From an uncultured Acidobacteriaceae bacterium (GTDB lineage: Bacteria; Acidobacteriota; Terriglobia; Terriglobales; Acidobacteriaceae): a stretch of DNA of 64,000 nucleotides. Below, piece after piece: positions 18,804 to 26,265 of the stretch; positions within the stretch are counted from its first letter, which is position 1, and every line of letters starts with the position of its first letter. The notes beneath the pieces are model-generated. The model worked only from the letters and a program-made list of their open reading frames with translations. It did no database searches and was not told where the DNA came from. The position numbers were made by a program, and so were the translations under genes. The stretch covers positions 1 to 64,000 of the forward strand of contig CAIVDV010000057.1 in assembly GCA_903904755.1 (NCBI GenBank). The letters are read 5' to 3'.

Positions 18804-19490
18804 TCACACCGCCAGCAAATTGGTATAAACGGCCATGCCGGCGACGGCGTCGATGCCTAGTTCGGCGAGGGCGTCGATCTCCTGCTGCGCGCGAATGCCG
18901 CCGGCGACGATGAGCTGGCGCTGCGTCAGTGGCTTGAGGCGGCGGGCGATATCGATGGGGAAGCCGCCGAGGAGGCCTTCGCCGTCGATGTGCGTGTAGA
19001 GGAATGCGCCGACGTGGGGCTCGAGGGCGGGGATGGCGTCGTCCGGGGTGAGGGCGACCTGGGCCTTCCAGCCCTTGATGGCGATGTTGCCGCCCTTGGC
19101 GTCGATGCCGGCGACGACCTGCGCGGCACCGACTGCGGCGGCCAGCTCAACTGCGAACTCGGTGTTCACGTGGCCCGCTCCGTCGCGCTCTGCAAAGAGG
19201 CTGGAGCCGACGATGACGCGCTGTGCTCCTGCCGCAAGCACGCTTTGAGCCCGGGCAACGGTGCCGATGCCGCCCCCGACCTGCACGGGCAGGCGGCGGG
19301 AGATCTGCTCGACGAGGGCGGTGTTTTCGCCCTGGCGCATGGCCGCGTCCAGGTCAATGAGCTGGACGAGCGGGTATTTGGAGAACTTCTCAATCCAGTA
19401 TTCGAAGTCGTCAAAGGCGAGGCGGAGCTTTTCGCCCTGCACCAGTTGCACGATTTGCCCGCCGAGCAGGTCAATGGAAGGAATCAGCAT
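18804..19490 (-). CDS. hisA: ProFAR isomerase (HisA)
   Basis: HisA catalyses the Amadori isomerisation of ProFAR to PRFAR, the fourth histidine step. The 228-residue TIM barrel has the catalytic Asp in [11 protein letters not shown], the phosphate loops VGGGIG and AGGIRAQ, and the second acid region at GIDAKGGN. It is the last gene of the his operon and overlaps hisF by 7 bp. Confidence 0.95.
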
Positions 19491-20263
19491 GGGAGCCTCA
19501 CGGGGATGCCGGCCTGGGCGAGCTCGCCCTTGAGCTGGCGGCTGGTGGAAACGCCGAAGTGGAAGATGCTGGCGGCCAGAGCTGCGTCGGCCCGGCCCCG
19601 GCCGAAGACGTCGGCAAAGTGGGCGACCGTGCCTGCGCCGCCTGAGGCGATGACGGGAATCTGCACGGCCTCGCTGACGGCGGCGGTCAGCGCGCAGTCA
19701 AAGCCGGCGCGGGTGCCGTCGGAGTCCATGCTGGTCAGCAGGATTTCGCCTGCGCCGCGGGATTCAGCCTCGCGCGCCCACTCGAGCACACTGCGGCCAC
19801 TGTCGCGCCGGCCACCGTGGGTGAAGACGTGGGCCTCGCGGACGGGGTCAGCGGCGGCGGGATTACGGCGAGCGTCAATGGCGACAATGACGGCCTGCGC
19901 GCCAAAGCTGGCGCCGATTTCCCCGATGAGGGCCGGGTTGGCGAGGGCGGCGGAGTTGACGCTGACCTTGTCGGCCCCGGCGTCGAAGACGGCGGCTGCA
20001 TCGTCGGCCGTGCGGATGCCGCCACCAACGGTGAACGGGACGAAGAGTTGCGCGGCGGTGCGGCGGACGGTGTCGAGCAGGGTGGCGCGGCCCTCGTGCG
20101 TCGCGGTGATGTCGAGCAACACGATTTCGTCGGCTCCACCGGCGGCATGGCGGTGGGCCAGCTCGGCTGGGTCGCCGGCGTCAATAATGTCGACAAACTG
20201 GATGCCCTTGACGACGCGGCCGTCGCGGACGTCGAGGCAGGCGATGATGCGTCTGGTTAGCAT
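19484..20263 (-). CDS. hisF: Imidazole glycerol phosphate synthase, cyclase subunit (HisF)
   Basis: With HisH, HisF converts PRFAR plus glutamine-derived ammonia to imidazole glycerol phosphate and AICAR. The 259-residue TIM barrel has Asp11 in [22 protein letters not shown], Asp in [10 protein letters not shown] and ASGGAGT. It starts one nucleotide after the stop of the YcxB-like gene, which separates it from its partner hisH; its stop overlaps hisA. Confidence 0.96.
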
Positions 20264-20264
20264 G

Positions 20265-20789
20265 TTATTTCTTCACCTTGTTGCGGTTTACAATTGCCTG
20301 GATTTCATCGATCTGCGCCTGTGTTAAGTACCGCGTTGGAATGGTGGTAAATCGTCCTTTTGCCATAACCAAAATCAGAGCCTGCTCGTCGTGAGCTACA
20401 TCTATATTTTGATTCCAGAAATATTTCCCCTCGCTTACACCAGGAACAAGTGTTCGTACCGATTCTTCGGCAACTTCAAGCTCAATGATTCGCTCTTTGC
20501 CTGAATCGGTAAATACTTGCTTGTATGCTTGTCGAGTCTTGTAGAAGTAGCAGAAAATGGAATACCCCGAGAGCACGGAGAGGCCACATTCTATCCCAAA
20601 AAGAATCGCAGCGTACTCGGTCAGCTTACTCATGTCAAATACCAGAAATAGTATGCTTCCCGCTATCGCCAGCAAAGGCAAGATTATGAACCAAAGAGCA
20701 AAGTTAAGTCGCCGTGTCAAGCGCAGAGATCGATAAAGCCGATTGGCCGCTTTAAAGTCAGCGAAGGTGACTGTGTACGAGAAAATCAT
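20265..20789 (-). CDS. YcxB-like membrane protein inserted in the his operon
   Basis: The 174-residue protein has two hydrophobic segments (about 31-52 and 57-80) and a C-terminal beta-rich YcxB-like domain ending in [18 protein letters not shown], where a conserved FxxIP(T/K)R-type motif is typical of the family. The function of the family is unknown. GC is visibly lower than in the flanking his genes. It is nevertheless fully integrated: its ATG overlaps the hisH stop as ATGA, and hisF begins 1 nt after its TAA. It therefore must be co-transcribed and coupled. No histidine-related role is evident. Confidence 0.75.
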
Positions 20790-21388
20790 GCCGGCAGCTC
20801 CAGGAAGTTCTTGAGGATTTTCAGGCCAGTTTCGCCGGATTTCTCCGGGTGGAACTGGGTGCCGAAGACGTTGCCGCGCTCGACGGCGGCGGCGAAGGGC
20901 TGGATGTACTCAGTGACGGCGCTGGTTTCTGCCGTAACGGGGCCGCGCCAACTATGGGTGAAGTAGGCAAACTCCCCCGGAGCGACGCCGGTGAAAAGCG
21001 GGCTGGCGAACGGGAAAGCGAGCTGATTCCAGCCCACGTGGGGCACCTTCTCATGCCCCTCCGGGAAGCGCTCGACAAGCTGGGCGAAGTGGCCGAGCCC
21101 CGGCTGTTCCGGCGCCTCCGTGCTGCCCCGGTAAAGCCATTGCATACCCACGCAGATGCCGAGGAAGGGTACGTCTCGGGCGATGATTGCGCGAATGGCA
21201 TCGGTGAGGCCGGTCGAGTCGAGCCGGGATGTGGCGGCAAAGTGGCCGACGCCGGGCAGGATGACGCGGCTGGCCTCAGCCAGCGGGCCGGGCACGTCAG
21301 TAACGGTGACCTGCGCGCCGAGATGCCGCAGCGACTTGACCACGCTGGTCAGGTTGCCGGCCTTGTAGTCGATGACGGTGACCTTCAT
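20786..21388 (-). CDS. hisH: Imidazole glycerol phosphate synthase, glutaminase subunit (HisH)
   Basis: This is the class I glutamine amidotransferase subunit that supplies ammonia to HisF. The 200-residue protein has the nucleophile Cys in GICVGMQWLY, the oxyanion strand region PGVGHF and the His-Glu pair in FHPEKSG. The start overlaps the hisB stop by one base (TGATG arrangement) and the stop overlaps the YcxB-like start. Confidence 0.95.
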   Translation of the reverse strand: MKVTVIDYKAGNLTSVVKSLRHLGAQVTVTDVPGPLAEASRVILPGVGHFAATSRLDSTGLTDAIRAIIARDVPFLGICVGMQWLYRGSTEAPEQPGLGHFAQLVERFPEGHEKVPHVGWNQLAFPFASPLFTGVAPGEFAYFTHSWRGPVTAETSAVTEYIQPFAAAVERGNVFGTQFHPEKSGETGLKILKNFLELPA

Positions 21389-21987
21389 CAGAGCAACCCC
21401 TTGGTGGAGGGCAGCATCTCGGCCAGTTGCGCATCCCTGCTGCAGGCCACCCGCATGGCGCGGGCAAAGGCCTTGAAGATCGCCTCAATCTTGTGGTGAT
21501 TGCTGCGGCCGTACATCGTCTTCACGTGGACATTGGCGCGTGCGCCGCGGGCAAATCCCTCGAAAAAGTCCGTCACCAACTCGGATTGCAGGTCGCCGAC
21601 GAGGCGGGTACGGACCTTGGTGTCGACAACAAACGCGGCGCGTCCGCTGAGGTCCACCGCCGCAATGGCCAGGGTCTCGTCCATCGGCATCAGGAAGTAG
21701 CCAGCGCGATTGATGCCTTTTTTGTCGCCCACCGCCCGGTCAAAGGCCTCGCCGAGAGCGATTCCAATGTCTTCCACGGTGTGGTGCTGGTCCACGTCGA
21801 GGTCGCCGTTGCAGGTCAGCTCCAGGTTGAAGCCGCCATGGCGGGTAAACAGCTCAAGCATGTGGTCAAAGAAGCGGATGCCGGTGGAGACCGTGTACTG
21901 GCCGGTGCCTTCGAGGGTGAGCTTCAGGGCGATTTTGGTCTCTGTGGTGTTGCGCAGAATCTCTGCCTGGCGGATGGGGCTGGTCAT
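21388..21987 (-). CDS. hisB: Imidazoleglycerol-phosphate dehydratase (HisB)
   Basis: HisB dehydrates imidazole glycerol phosphate to imidazole acetol phosphate. The 199-residue protein is the dehydratase only, without the histidinol-phosphatase domain of enteric HisB. It carries the two metal-binding motifs [14 protein letters not shown] and the C-terminal SNHHKIEA. The ATG at 21987 forms an ATGA overlap with the hisC stop and is preceded by AGGAG. A separate histidinol phosphatase must be encoded elsewhere. Confidence 0.95.
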
Positions 21988-23066
21988 GCACGGTCTCCTG
22001 ACTTGCACTGAGCGAGGTAATTTTCAATGGCGATGGATGCGCGGCGCATCTGCTCGCGGGTGCCGATGGTGATGCGGACCAGCCCCTGGCAGCCGGGGTC
22101 GGCGGAGCGGTCGCGAACCAGAATGCCGGCCTGGCGCATGTGCTCCACAAAGCCGCGATGGTCTGCGCCGATATCTACCAGGACAAAGTTGGCCTGGGTG
22201 GGCCAGATGCGCAGGTTGAGCCCGGTCAAGTCCAGCAGAAACTCCATGCGGGCGCGCTTGACCTCGGTCACGTAGGTTTCCAGATAAAGCTGGTCGTCGA
22301 GCGCCGCAGGCAGCGCGGCCAGGGCGACCGAGTTCACGCTGTAAGGCGAGAGGACGCGGCGGATCCAGCGCATGTTTTCCGCCGAGCTGGCCAGCAGGCC
22401 CAGGCGCAGGCCGGCCAGCCCATAGGCTTTTGAGAAGGTGCGGGCGACTGCGAGATTGGGGATTTGTCCCACAAGGTCGATGACGGTTTCGCCAAAGAAG
22501 TGGAAATACGCCTCATCGGCAAGAACGATTGCCTGGGGAGCGGCAGCGCAGATGGCCAGAATCTGCTCGCGCGTGGTGACGGAGCCGGTGGGGCTGTTGG
22601 GGTTGGCAATGCAGATGAGCTTGGTGCGGGGGGTGATGGCGGCCAGCATGCGCTCATACGGGAATGCGAAGTCTTCCCCCGCCTGCACGGTGACCAGCCG
22701 GGCATCGGTCTGCGCGGCGTAGATCTCGTACATGGTGTAGGTGGGCACGGGGAGGAGCAGTTCGTCGCCGGCCTCAAGGAATGCCTGACACAGCACGTGA
22801 ATGGCCTCGTCCACGCCGTTGGTCAGCACCACCTGCTCCGGATCCAGGCGCAGATGCGCCGCTGCCCTGGCTTCCACCGTGCCGCGCTCGGGGTACTTGG
22901 TCAGCCGTTCGCAGGTGAGCAGGCGAATGGCCTCGGCAACGCGTGGCGAACAGGCGAGCGTGTTCTCGTTGAAGTCGAGGCGGGTGAGGTCGCGATTGCC
23001 CAGGGGCGGATGATACTCCGGCATGGCGGCTACCCGCGCGCGGGGTTTCACTGCTATTCCGGTCAT
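21984..23066 (-). CDS. hisC: Histidinol-phosphate aminotransferase (HisC)
   Basis: HisC transaminates imidazole acetol phosphate with glutamate to histidinol phosphate. It is a 360-residue fold-type I PLP enzyme. It has the N-terminal [32 protein letters not shown], the PLP lysine in [14 protein letters not shown] and the C-terminal phosphate-binding Arg region. The ATG overlaps the hisD stop (ATGA). Confidence 0.94.
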
Positions 23067-24328
23067 GCCATTCTCCTGAGCCGGGTCTGGATTGCCTCGG
23101 CGTGCCCCAGCAGCCCCTCGGCATTGGCCAGCGTGACGGCGCTGGGGCCGAGCTGGGCAAGGGCTTCCGGGGTGTACTGCTGAACGGTGATGAGCTTGAT
23201 GAAGTCGTTGACGCTGAGGCCGCCGCGCAGGGTTGCCAGGCCGCCGGTGGGCAGCGTGTGGTTGGGGCCGGAGATGTAGTCGCCCATGGGCTGCGGCGAG
23301 TGCTCGCCGACAAAAACCGAGCCGGCGTTGCGCACCCAGCTAAGGTCATCGTTCTCGTCCACAGTCAGGTGCTCTGGAGCAAGGCGGTTGGTGAGTTCGC
23401 GAGCCTCCTCTGGGGTTGCGGCAACGAGGATGACGCCGTTGGCCGCCAGTGCCTCGGCTGCGACGGGATTGACGGCTGCGCGGCGGTCGGTTTCAGCCAG
23501 TACCGCAGCGGCCAGGTCGGCCTGGGTGGTGACAAAGACTGCAACAGCGTTGGGGTCGTGCTCGGCCTGGGCGACCAGATCGCTGGCGATGCCCTCGGGG
23601 GTGCCCCGGTTGCTGGCCACGACGATTTCCGTGGGGCCGGCCAGCATGTCAATAGCGCAGGAGCCCTCAGACGAAACCTGGCGCTTGGCTGCGGTGACGT
23701 AGAGGTTGCCGGGGCCGACGATTTTGTTCACCGCAGGAATGGTTGCAGTGCCGTAGGCGAGGGCGGCCACAGCGTGGGCTCCGCCGATGCGGTAGAACTC
23801 GGTAACGCCGAGCAGGTGCGCGGTGGCGAGCGTCTCTGGCGCAGGGTTGGGAGAGACGACCACAATGCGGCCGACACCCGCAACCTGCGCCGGGATGACC
23901 GTCATGAGCATGGTGGAGGGCAGCGGATGACGCCCGCCGGGGACGTAGCAGCCCACGGCATCGATGGCCCGGACAATTTGCCCGGTGACCAGACCCGGAA
24001 TGGGCTCAAAGGCCCAGCTTTGCGGCAACTGGCGCTCAGCAAAGCTGCGGATCTGGCCGGCTGCGGTCTCAAGAGCCGTCTGGAGCGCGGGATTCAGCGC
24101 ATTCCATGCCGCCTGCGTTTCGGCTTCAGTTACGCGCAGCGCTGAGCCTGCAGCGAGCTTGTCAAACCGCTCGGCATAGCTGCGCAGGGCGGTGTCGCCC
24201 TCGCTGCGAACGGCCTCCAGCATCTCCGCAACGGTAGCCTGCACGGTTCCCAGGGAAACTCCGCCCCGGCTGAGTAACGTGGCAATCGCCTGCTGCCCTG
24301 CCGGTGAGTCTGTCTGAAGCAATTTCAT
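23063..24328 (-). CDS. hisD: Histidinol dehydrogenase (HisD)
   Basis: HisD carries out the last two oxidations, histidinol to histidine, using NAD and a zinc ion. The 421-residue protein contains CYVPGGRHPLPSTMLM, GVTEFYRIGGAHAVAALAYGT, SCAIDMLAGPTEI and GDYISGPNHTLPTGG, all diagnostic. The ATG at 24328 is taken because homologues start close to KLLQ; further upstream sequence forms the intercistronic hairpin at 24361-24386. It is separated from hisG by 120 bp, the only large gap within the operon. Confidence 0.95.
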   Translation of the reverse strand: MKLLQTDSPAGQQAIATLLSRGGVSLGTVQATVAEMLEAVRSEGDTALRSYAERFDKLAAGSALRVTEAETQAAWNALNPALQTALETAAGQIRSFAERQLPQSWAFEPIPGLVTGQIVRAIDAVGCYVPGGRHPLPSTMLMTVIPAQVAGVGRIVVVSPNPAPETLATAHLLGVTEFYRIGGAHAVAALAYGTATIPAVNKIVGPGNLYVTAAKRQVSSEGSCAIDMLAGPTEIVVASNRGTPEGIASDLVAQAEHDPNAVAVFVTTQADLAAAVLAETDRRAAVNPVAAEALAANGVILVAATPEEARELTNRLAPEHLTVDENDDLSWVRNAGSVFVGEHSPQPMGDYISGPNHTLPTGGLATLRGGLSVNDFIKLITVQQYTPEALAQLGPSAVTLANAEGLLGHAEAIQTRLRRMA

Positions 24329-24360
24329 GGTTTGTCCCCAAATCTCCGGGTGTCGGGTGC

Positions 24361-24386
24361 CCCCGGTCTCGCTTCTGAGACCGGGG
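24361..24386. repeat. Intercistronic palindrome between hisG and hisD
   Basis: CCCCGGTCTC (24361-24370) and GAGACCGGGG (24377-24386) are perfect arms around a 6-nt loop. No T-run follows on the minus strand, so it is not a simple terminator. It may modulate mRNA stability between hisG and hisD. Confidence 0.75.
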
Positions 24387-24448
24387 AACCACCCGTCCAC
24401 CGTGTGAACCAGCCAGCCACAACCTGGTCGCTGGCAGCAGGTCGCTTC

Positions 24449-25324
24449 TTACAGAACCACCTTGTTCAGCGGATACTCCACGATGCCGGTTGCGCCGGCT
24501 GCCTTCAGCTTGGGCACAACTTCGCGCACCACGGTCTCTTCCAGAATGGTGTTCACGGCCACCCAGGAAGGATTGGAGAGCTGCGAAACCGTCGGCGAGT
24601 TGAGCGCGGGCAGGATCGACAGCAACTGCTCCAGATCCTGCTTCTTGGCGTTCAGCATCAGGCCAACCTGCGACTGCGCATCGATGGCGGCGCGCAGCAT
24701 CAGGGCAATCTGCTGGATCTTCTCCAGCTTCCAGGCATCTTCCGACGCGGCCTTGCTGGCGATCAGGTGGGTTTCGCTCTCCATCACCGTGTCAATGATG
24801 GTCAGGCGATTGGCCTTCAGGCTTGAGCCGGTTTCCGTCACTTCCACAATGGCGTCGGCCAGCATCGGCGGCTTCACTTCCGTTGCGCCCCAACTGAACT
24901 CCACCTTCACGTTGACGCCCTTGGCGGCGAAGTAGCGCTTGGTCACTTCGACGAGCTCGGTGGCGATGATCTTGCCCTCCAGATCCTCAGCCTTGGTAAA
25001 GCCGGAACCCTCCGGCACGGCCAGCACCCAGCGCACCTTGCGGCGGCTCTGCTTGGCATAGGTGAGCGAGGTGATGGAGTTGACGGTGAGGCCGCTTTCA
25101 ACCACCCAGTCAATGCCCGTCAGGCCGGCATCGAGAACGCCGTGATCCACGTAGCGGGCCATCTCCTGCGCGCGGATGAGCATGCACTCGATTTCCTTGT
25201 CGTCGATGGAGGGGAAGTAGCTGCGGCCGTCGGCATAGATATTCCAGCCGGCGCGCTTGAAGAGGGCGATGGTGGCGTCCTGCAGGCTGCCCTTGGGAAT
25301 TCCGAGACGAAGTTTGTTAGCCAC
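24449..25324 (-). CDS. hisG: ATP phosphoribosyltransferase, long form (HisG)
   Basis: HisG is the first committed enzyme of histidine synthesis, condensing ATP and PRPP. At 291 residues it is the long form, with a C-terminal regulatory domain, so it needs no HisZ and is probably feedback-inhibited by histidine. It has [11 protein letters not shown] at the start, the [10 protein letters not shown] block and the PRPP-binding region near [15 protein letters not shown] take GTG 25324 as start: it has AGGAGGTG just upstream and homologues begin at LRLGIPKG. It overlaps the end of hisI by 8 bp. Confidence 0.93.
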
Positions 25325-25694
25325 GCTGCACCTCCTGGGCGCCGGTTGTCGAGCTTGGGTTGACGGGGATCTTCTTGGTAAAGCAGCTGACCGTGCCTTC
25401 GTGGCAAACCAGTCCATCGCCCTCCACCACCACCTTGAAGACCAGGGTGTCGTTGTCGCAATCCGTTGCGGCGGAGACGACGCGCAGGCGGTTGCCGCTG
25501 GACTCGCCCTTCATCCACAGCTTTTGCCGCGTGCGGCTCCAGAAGGTGACAAACCCGGTTTCCAGGGTCTTGGCATAGCTGATTGGATTCAGGAAGCCGA
25601 GCATGAGGATTTCCCCGCTGGCTGCGTCCTGGACGACGCCCGGGACGAGCCCGTCCATCTTGTCGAAATCAATTGTGGGTGTTGCCTGGGTCAT
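25317..25694 (-). CDS. hisI: Phosphoribosyl-AMP cyclohydrolase (HisI)
   Basis: HisI opens the adenine ring of phosphoribosyl-AMP, the third histidine step. The 125-residue protein is the cyclohydrolase only, without the HisE pyrophosphohydrolase domain. It has [28 protein letters not shown], the zinc/metal segment [11 protein letters not shown] and CHEGTVSCF. The ATG at 25694 is the first gene start after the attenuator terminator, which ends about 59 nt upstream. No hisE is present in this operon, so it must be elsewhere. Confidence 0.93.
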
Positions 25695-25752: not shown

Positions 25753-25783
25753 AAAAAACCCGCTGGCGGAGTTCGCCGGCGGG
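25753..25783 (-). terminator. Attenuator terminator of the his operon
   Basis: On the minus strand CCCGCCGGCG (25783-25774) pairs with CGCCAGCGGG (one mismatch, 5-nt loop) and is followed at once by TTTTTT. It lies between the His leader peptide and hisI. Its 5' arm is also complementary to leader positions 25843-25835, giving a 9-bp alternative (antiterminator) helix. Confidence 0.85.
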
Positions 25784-25815
25784 CCTGTGTAATCTGGTGA
25801 TGTTTCTTGGCCTTC

Positions 25816-25893
25816 TTAGCTCAGGCCACAGCACCCCGCCGACATGGTCATCCCATGATGATGGTGGTGACGATGATGGAGGTGGGTCTGCAT
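25816..25893 (-). CDS. hisL: his operon leader peptide (HisL-type)
   Basis: This short minus-strand ORF of 25 codons (ATG 25893, TAA 25816) encodes eight histidines, seven of them within the run HHRHHHHH (residues 6-13) and one at residue 4. Such His runs are the sensor of translation-coupled attenuation in enteric his operons. Ribosome stalling at the His codons would leave codons 17-20 (GTCGGCGGG) free to pair with the terminator 5' arm and let transcription continue into hisI. No Shine-Dalgarno precedes the ATG, but the predicted promoter places the RNA start 0-4 nt before it, so it may be leaderless. A small TGGCCT/AGGCCA hairpin surrounds the stop codon. Confidence 0.88.
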   Translation of the reverse strand: MQTHLHHRHHHHHGMTMSAGCCGLS

Positions 25894-25902
25894 CTGGATT
25901 TA

Positions 25903-25932
25903 AAGCTATCGAAGCTGCCGGGGGCGTGTCAA
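25903..25932 (-). promoter_or_regulatory. Predicted sigma-70-type promoter of the his operon
   Basis: A perfect -35 TTGACA (25932-25927) is followed after 18 nt by TAGCTT (25908-25903) as -10. The predicted RNA start near 25896 falls at the leader-peptide ATG. Confidence 0.6.
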
Positions 25933-25962: not shown

Positions 25963-26265
25963 ATGAAGCTGGCGCACAATGTTGCCATGCCCCCACGCGT
26001 GTTTGCCACTGCCCTGCTGATGGTTTCTCTGTTCTTTGCCGGCTTGACGCTGCTGGCGGAGACGAAGTCCGCCGGCCCCGTCGACATCAACCACGCCGCC
26101 GTTGCTGAGATTGAGAAAGTGCCGGGCATGACGGCCGTATGGGCTGCCCGCATCGTGCGCTTCCGGCCCTACCGCGCAAAGTCTGACCTGGTAGAGAAAG
26201 GCATTGTGCCTGCCGAAGTCTACGCCCGCATCCGGGACGGAATTGTTGCCCGCAAAAACGAATAG
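25963..26265 (+). CDS. Small helix-hairpin-helix protein (ComEA-like)
   Basis: The 100-residue protein has an N-terminal hydrophobic segment (about residues 9-28, signal or anchor) followed by a helix-hairpin-helix domain: VDINHAAVAEIEKVPGM, then RIVRFRPYRAKSDLVEKG. ComEA-type HhH domains bind DNA at the cell surface during competence, but single-domain versions also occur without competence genes, and none lie here. ATG 25963 gives the natural signal peptide; ATG 25987 is possible. It is divergent from the his operon, with only 30 bp between its start and the his -35 box. Confidence 0.75.
   Translation: MKLAHNVAMPPRVFATALLMVSLFFAGLTLLAETKSAGPVDINHAAVAEIEKVPGMTAVWAARIVRFRPYRAKSDLVEKGIVPAEVYARIRDGIVARKNE

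Follow-up and report, generated by a model that had tools for sequence, protein, structure and literature searches.

In the enteric his attenuator (HisL; Rfam family RF00514), a run of His codons within a short open reading frame (ORF) is followed by an antiterminator/terminator choice, an intrinsic terminator and the his operon, and the leader folds by a five-segment scheme (A:B, B:C, C:D, D:E and E:F). The trp attenuator works with the pairings 1:2, 2:3 and 3:4. Leader ORFs of attenuators can also be leaderless, as mapped for leuL, trpL, ilvL, metL and thrL of Streptomyces lividans (PMC8079986) and for trpL of Sinorhizobium meliloti (PMC7298713). In Bacillus, His leader peptides have been predicted before hisS and hisZ, and among the attenuators predicted in acidobacteria almost none have associated functions (PMC2965389). 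About 13% of acidobacterial genes are predicted to be leaderless (PMC3160421). No report of a his attenuator in Acidobacteriota was found in the literature covered, which included few subscription papers.

The window analysed here, i.e. the whole stretch of 64,000 nucleotides, carries on its minus strand a short ORF rich in His codons (8 of 25) before a full his operon. We consider it very likely that this region is a ribosome-mediated transcription attenuator of the his genes, with a leaderless leader ORF and the three-hairpin logic of trp attenuators. It shares with enteric HisL the His-codon run in a short ORF, the antiterminator/terminator choice, the intrinsic terminator and the his operon downstream. 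In contrast to enteric HisL, however, its leader ORF is predicted to be leaderless, its match to the Rfam model stays below the gathering threshold, three competing helices (P1, B:E and E:F) take the place of the five-segment scheme, the operon begins with hisI instead of hisG, and the C:D hairpin is specific to a clade. P1, B:E and E:F would correspond to the trp pairings 1:2, 2:3 and 3:4, respectively, but the codons are those of His, and the leader ORF itself contains the antiterminator's 5' half, which follows the last His codon at a distance of 14 nt. The leaders of S. meliloti trpL and S. lividans resemble it in that the RNA starts at or beside the ATG of the leader ORF; they belong to Proteobacteria and Actinobacteria and are Trp, Leu, Ile/Val, Met or Thr leaders with mapped starts, whereas the present leader concerns His in Acidobacteriota and its start is predicted. 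The Bacillus hisS and hisZ leaders also place a His leader peptide outside Proteobacteria, but before other genes and in another phylum.

The first structural gene of the operon is hisI, encoding phosphoribosyl-AMP cyclohydrolase (25317–25694, minus strand; PF01502, E = 4.9e-28). It is followed on the same strand, within 18804–25417, by hisG, hisD, hisC, hisB, hisH, an ORF of 174 amino acids, hisF and hisA, in this order, each his gene with its Pfam matches. The 174-aa ORF between hisH and hisF (20789–20265, minus strand) has hydrophobic segments and gave no match to a Pfam family. Elsewhere in the window, a thiamine pyrophosphate (TPP) riboswitch (30514–30418, minus strand; RF00059, 69.9 bits) lies directly upstream of a 777-aa ORF resembling a TonB-dependent receptor (30342–28009), which suggests thiamine uptake under TPP control.

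Promoter, leader ORF and terminator were each found where the initial annotation had placed them, on the minus strand upstream of hisI. The leader ORF (25816–25893) indeed has 25 codons, eight of them for His, and lies between the TTGACA promoter and the terminator; it encodes MQTHLHHRHHHHHGMTMSAGCCGLS, ends in a stop codon and has no Shine-Dalgarno (SD) sequence. That comparing the hisI upstream regions of related Acidobacteriaceae would be informative had been proposed at the outset. We collected hisI loci from named genomes and from relatives of the window's own genome, which left 95 leaders after removal of duplicates. A short His-rich ORF was present upstream of hisI in 107 of the 110 relatives; the three others offered only about 151 nt of upstream sequence each, so that all 107 with enough sequence carry the ORF. 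The leader element is more than a product of chance, because its minimum free energy (MFE) has a z-score of -2.75, RF00514 aligns with it over the full length of the model and the His-rich ORF recurs in these 107 relatives. The His codons of the relatives' leaders are chosen freely between CAT and CAC (428:277). Judged from this free variation, the His run is conserved as codons. Distances behind the run are also kept: in 61 of 94 leaders, 14 nt separate the last His codon from the core of segment B, which is the 5' half of the antiterminator, and in 54 of 94, B is 17 nt from the stop codon. Among relatives of the class outside the family whose operon is led by hisI, the His-rich leader ORF is mostly present. 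Four relatives of the class outside the family had no His-rich ORF upstream of hisI. In two of these, hisI follows the apparent end of hisF and hence is internal to an operon; one lies on a short contig and one is unexplained.

The predicted promoter (25903–25932, minus strand) consists of TTGACA at 25932–25927, a spacer of 18 nt and TAGCTT at 25908–25903. The latter is the best -10 candidate but a weak one, with three of six positions matching the consensus, and from it seven further bases lead to the ATG at 25893, ending in CCAG-ATG. The RNA of the window's leader is thus predicted to start at about A25895, 2 nt 5' of the leader ATG. A strict promoter and terminator scan of the window reported neither the leader promoter nor its terminator, because the -10 element is weak and the terminator stem contains a mismatch. 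The leader ATG lies about 69 nt from the start of a divergent gene on the plus strand (25963–26265) with an HHH_3 domain (ComEA-like helix-hairpin-helix), and the very short intergenic region is common to the leader promoter and the promoter of this gene.

The same spacing between promoter and ATG returns in the relatives. In 87 of the 95 leaders TTGAC starts 36–40 nt upstream of the ATG, and in 94 of 95 it starts 34–45 nt upstream. Setting the RNA start 7 nt beyond a -10 element of the TAnnnT type, as found in the relatives' leaders, gives a predicted 5' untranslated region (UTR) of 0–4 nt in most of them. The two bases preceding the ATG favour AG (72% and 76%). SD-like motifs precede only two of the 95 leader ATGs, with about four expected by chance, whereas in these organisms they precede 64 of 95 hisI starts. 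Furthermore, most covariance-model matches in other families show TTGAC and TAnnnT, with the -10 element ending 8–11 nt before the ATG; the model begins 2 nt before the ATG, so that the promoter lies outside it, and these families were not used in building it. Conservation of the promoter spacing in the family and elsewhere in the class, together with the absence of SD motifs, supports the leaderless leader peptide that the initial annotation had suspected, with the 5' end itself predicted. That annotation had also called such a start unusual for an attenuator, a judgement that does not agree with the leaderless starts mapped in S. lividans (PMC8079986) and S. meliloti (PMC7298713).

The same attenuator might instead be transcribed from a start further upstream, with the ORF translated from within a 5' UTR. 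The weak -10 element of the window and the empty strict promoter scan would fit such a leadered RNA, but we consider it very unlikely, as the distances of TTGAC and TAnnnT to the ATG are kept across some 95 leaders and other families, SD-like motifs, though common before hisI, are no more frequent before the leader ATG than chance would give, and the leader ATG and the start of the divergent gene are only about 69 nt apart. A pattern search for leader-like promoter–ATG geometry in the window's genome returned 33 matches, compared with 13 in a reversed control. Some of these matches (e.g. L200 and L201) stand before long ORFs, which might be leaderless genes; no second amino-acid leader was found among the 33.

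Downstream of the leader ORF, the intrinsic terminator E:F occupies 25753–25786 (minus strand). Its E arm (25786–25774) and F arm (25768–25756) enclose the loop AACTC, and the stem from 25786 to 25756 consists of 8 bp, a C.A mismatch and 4 bp, with the T6 tail at 25758–25753, in agreement with the first reading of this locus. An intrinsic terminator between leader ORF and hisI is conserved in the aligned leaders, and in an RNAalifold analysis of 61 leaders E:F was the sole helix predicted, with double changes at two pairs. Segment B, GTCGGCGGG (25843–25835, minus strand), lies within the leader ORF and can pair with CCCGCCGGC (25783–25775) in the E arm over 9 bp, one of them G-U. This pairing had been noticed from the window alone, and it is borne out by covariation among 61 leaders below about 85% identity. 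B:E was paired in 90.1% of cells with 33 double changes, whereas only 28–45% were paired when the partners were slid by one to three columns, and its observed score was reached by no shuffle in a control that ignores the phylogeny of the leaders. Moreover, duplexes of B with the E arm of its own leader had a mean energy of -19.6 kcal/mol, compared with -17.5 ± 0.29 kcal/mol for permuted partners, and beat all 2000 permutations. B:E and E:F have the E arm in common, so that antiterminator and terminator are mutually exclusive.

A second helix, absent from the initial annotation, precedes the antiterminator. P1 (25843–25857, minus strand) is the hairpin CATGG-GATGA-CCATG; the last His codon forms its 5' strand, and its 3' strand overlaps the start of B. 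In the relatives it takes the forms CATGG-N5-CCATG or CACGN-N5-NCGTG. P1 was paired in 93.5% of cells with 46 double changes and had a covariation score of 0.375, compared with at most 0.154 for slid partners; as for B:E, the shuffled controls ignore kinship among the leaders. P1 and B:E have three columns in common. Hence, through shared columns or the shared E arm, each of P1, B:E and E:F excludes its neighbour at least partly. By this covariation, the CATGG-N5-CCATG hairpin is the conserved protector. The TGGCCT/AGGCCA hairpin C:D (25808–25828, minus strand; arms 25828–25823 and 25813–25808) had been described as enclosing the stop codon, and in the window its loop does contain the TAA; it is, however, a clade-specific accessory outside the conserved core. 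Of 94 leaders, 51 form a strong C:D-like stem whose loop always holds the stop codon; in the others such a stem is absent, weak or different, whereas in an enteric-type leader it would be present throughout. An A:B pairing between CCGCC (codons 4–5) and GGCGG, taken from the MFE structure of the window, was rejected; it did not covary, and 119 of 500 shuffles reached the observed pairing.

The core of B occurs in all three frames relative to the leader ORF (85, 7 and 2 leaders), and on this ground B is conserved as RNA. Seven leaders (L009, L011, L025, L038, L041, L055 and L065) change frame somewhere between the His run and the stop codon, with B unchanged or changing together with E; they are natural frameshift controls for conservation at the RNA level. 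In L065, B is shifted (GCGGGCA) but retains its pairing with the leader's own terminator arm. Alternatively, the ORF might be translated into a small protein with an independent function, e.g. metal binding by its His run and CC motif, whose co-regulation with the his operon would be due to chance; the eight His and two Cys of the peptide would fit this. We regard it as extremely improbable: what follows the His run is preserved at the RNA level in three frames (MPADCHGL, CRRTAMA and HACGQP), the Cys are not conserved, the ORF always stands before a his gene, and both B:E and P1 show covariation. Equally improbable is a His-specific T-box, or another riboswitch that binds tRNA or a metabolite. 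T-boxes regulate his genes in other phyla (PMC9413887), but the Rfam T-box model yielded no match in the window at its gathering threshold, and none in the leader region even at E values up to 10, whereas His_leader aligns there in full length. What is conserved, moreover, is an ORF with a translated run of His codons, and neither a specifier loop nor a T-box sequence. Together, His-codon conservation and the covariation of B:E and P1 strongly support the His leader peptide with an antiterminator/terminator choice proposed in the initial annotation.

Rfam's own model recognises this leader poorly. In the window, RF00514 matched with 32.5 bits (E = 0.0017), below its gathering cut-off of 49. 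The cut-off was reached in none of 121 genomes of the class and in one of 14 control genomes. These results imply that Rfam His_leader misses the whole acidobacterial lineage. A covariance model built from the relatives' leaders, R1, yielded a single convincing site when the window's genome was searched (2.2e-21; the next best had E = 1.9). R1 sites were present in 75 of 151 genomes of the class and in three of 199 genomes searched from other classes of the phylum. Two of these three are apparently beside hisI, and one reads as beside hisG. At locus L170, in a genome of another class of the phylum, the His leader MTVIRHHHHHGNKLQDLMLLR stands behind a TTGACA promoter and before an apparent hisG; the switch is therefore not tied to hisI.

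We propose the following mechanism. RNA polymerase would start about 2 nt before the ATG, and a ribosome would load on an essentially leaderless, SD-free RNA. When charged His-tRNA is scarce, the ribosome would stall in the His run, melt P1 and leave B free; B would then pair with E before F is transcribed, and transcription would proceed into hisI. When His-tRNA is plentiful, the ribosome would cross B to the stop codon and depart, after which P1 would reform, E would pair with F and transcription would end at the T6. Sequence comparison shows the conserved His codons, the promoter spacing and the covarying P1 and B:E; where exactly the RNA starts, that the ribosome stalls and that read-through depends on histidine are inferences. 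When a His codon occupies its A site, a ribosome shields some 10–11 nt past that codon. With a gap of 14 nt between the last His codon and B, a stalled ribosome would hence melt P1 and leave B free.

Folding calculations were in part consistent with this scheme. When the leaders were folded without F, B:E formed in 85 of 89 leaders with the stalled ribosome masked, compared with 61 of 89 unmasked and 63 of 89 with the ribosome masked at the stop codon. In the full-length equilibrium partition function, the terminator was favoured at every ribosome position, and only the intermediate before F responded. Since the terminator wins at equilibrium, the choice would have to be kinetic and made during transcription. 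In the window's own leader, B:E forms before F with or without a stall (9.2 vs 9.05–9.2 bp), i.e. without discrimination. From folding energetics alone, the switch can be neither proved nor disproved. In most leaders, a ribosome at the stop codon abuts the 3' end of B and does not cover it. When histidine is replete, B would be silenced through transit time, P1 and C:D, which is the least certain step of the mechanism.

The kind of switch is classical; what appears to be new is a lineage-specific form with a predicted leaderless start, conserved across a class of soil bacteria, that very probably senses histidine shortage. A bolder reading, which we consider unlikely, is that the leaderless, SD-free start of the ribosome is obligatory in a separate attenuator lineage (the class and some other Acidobacteriota). 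Initiation at the 5' end would then synchronise ribosome and polymerase, and by analogy with rnTrpL and peTrpL of Sinorhizobium either the His-rich peptide or the leader RNA released at the terminator (about 140 nt) might also act in trans. For an abundant soil phylum, in which attenuators have been predicted but are functionally unassigned, the proposed attenuator would provide a concrete regulatory mechanism across a whole class. With His sensing and a predicted leaderless leader ORF over many genera, it would also be a natural system for studying how ribosome and polymerase are paced from the 5' end of the nascent RNA.
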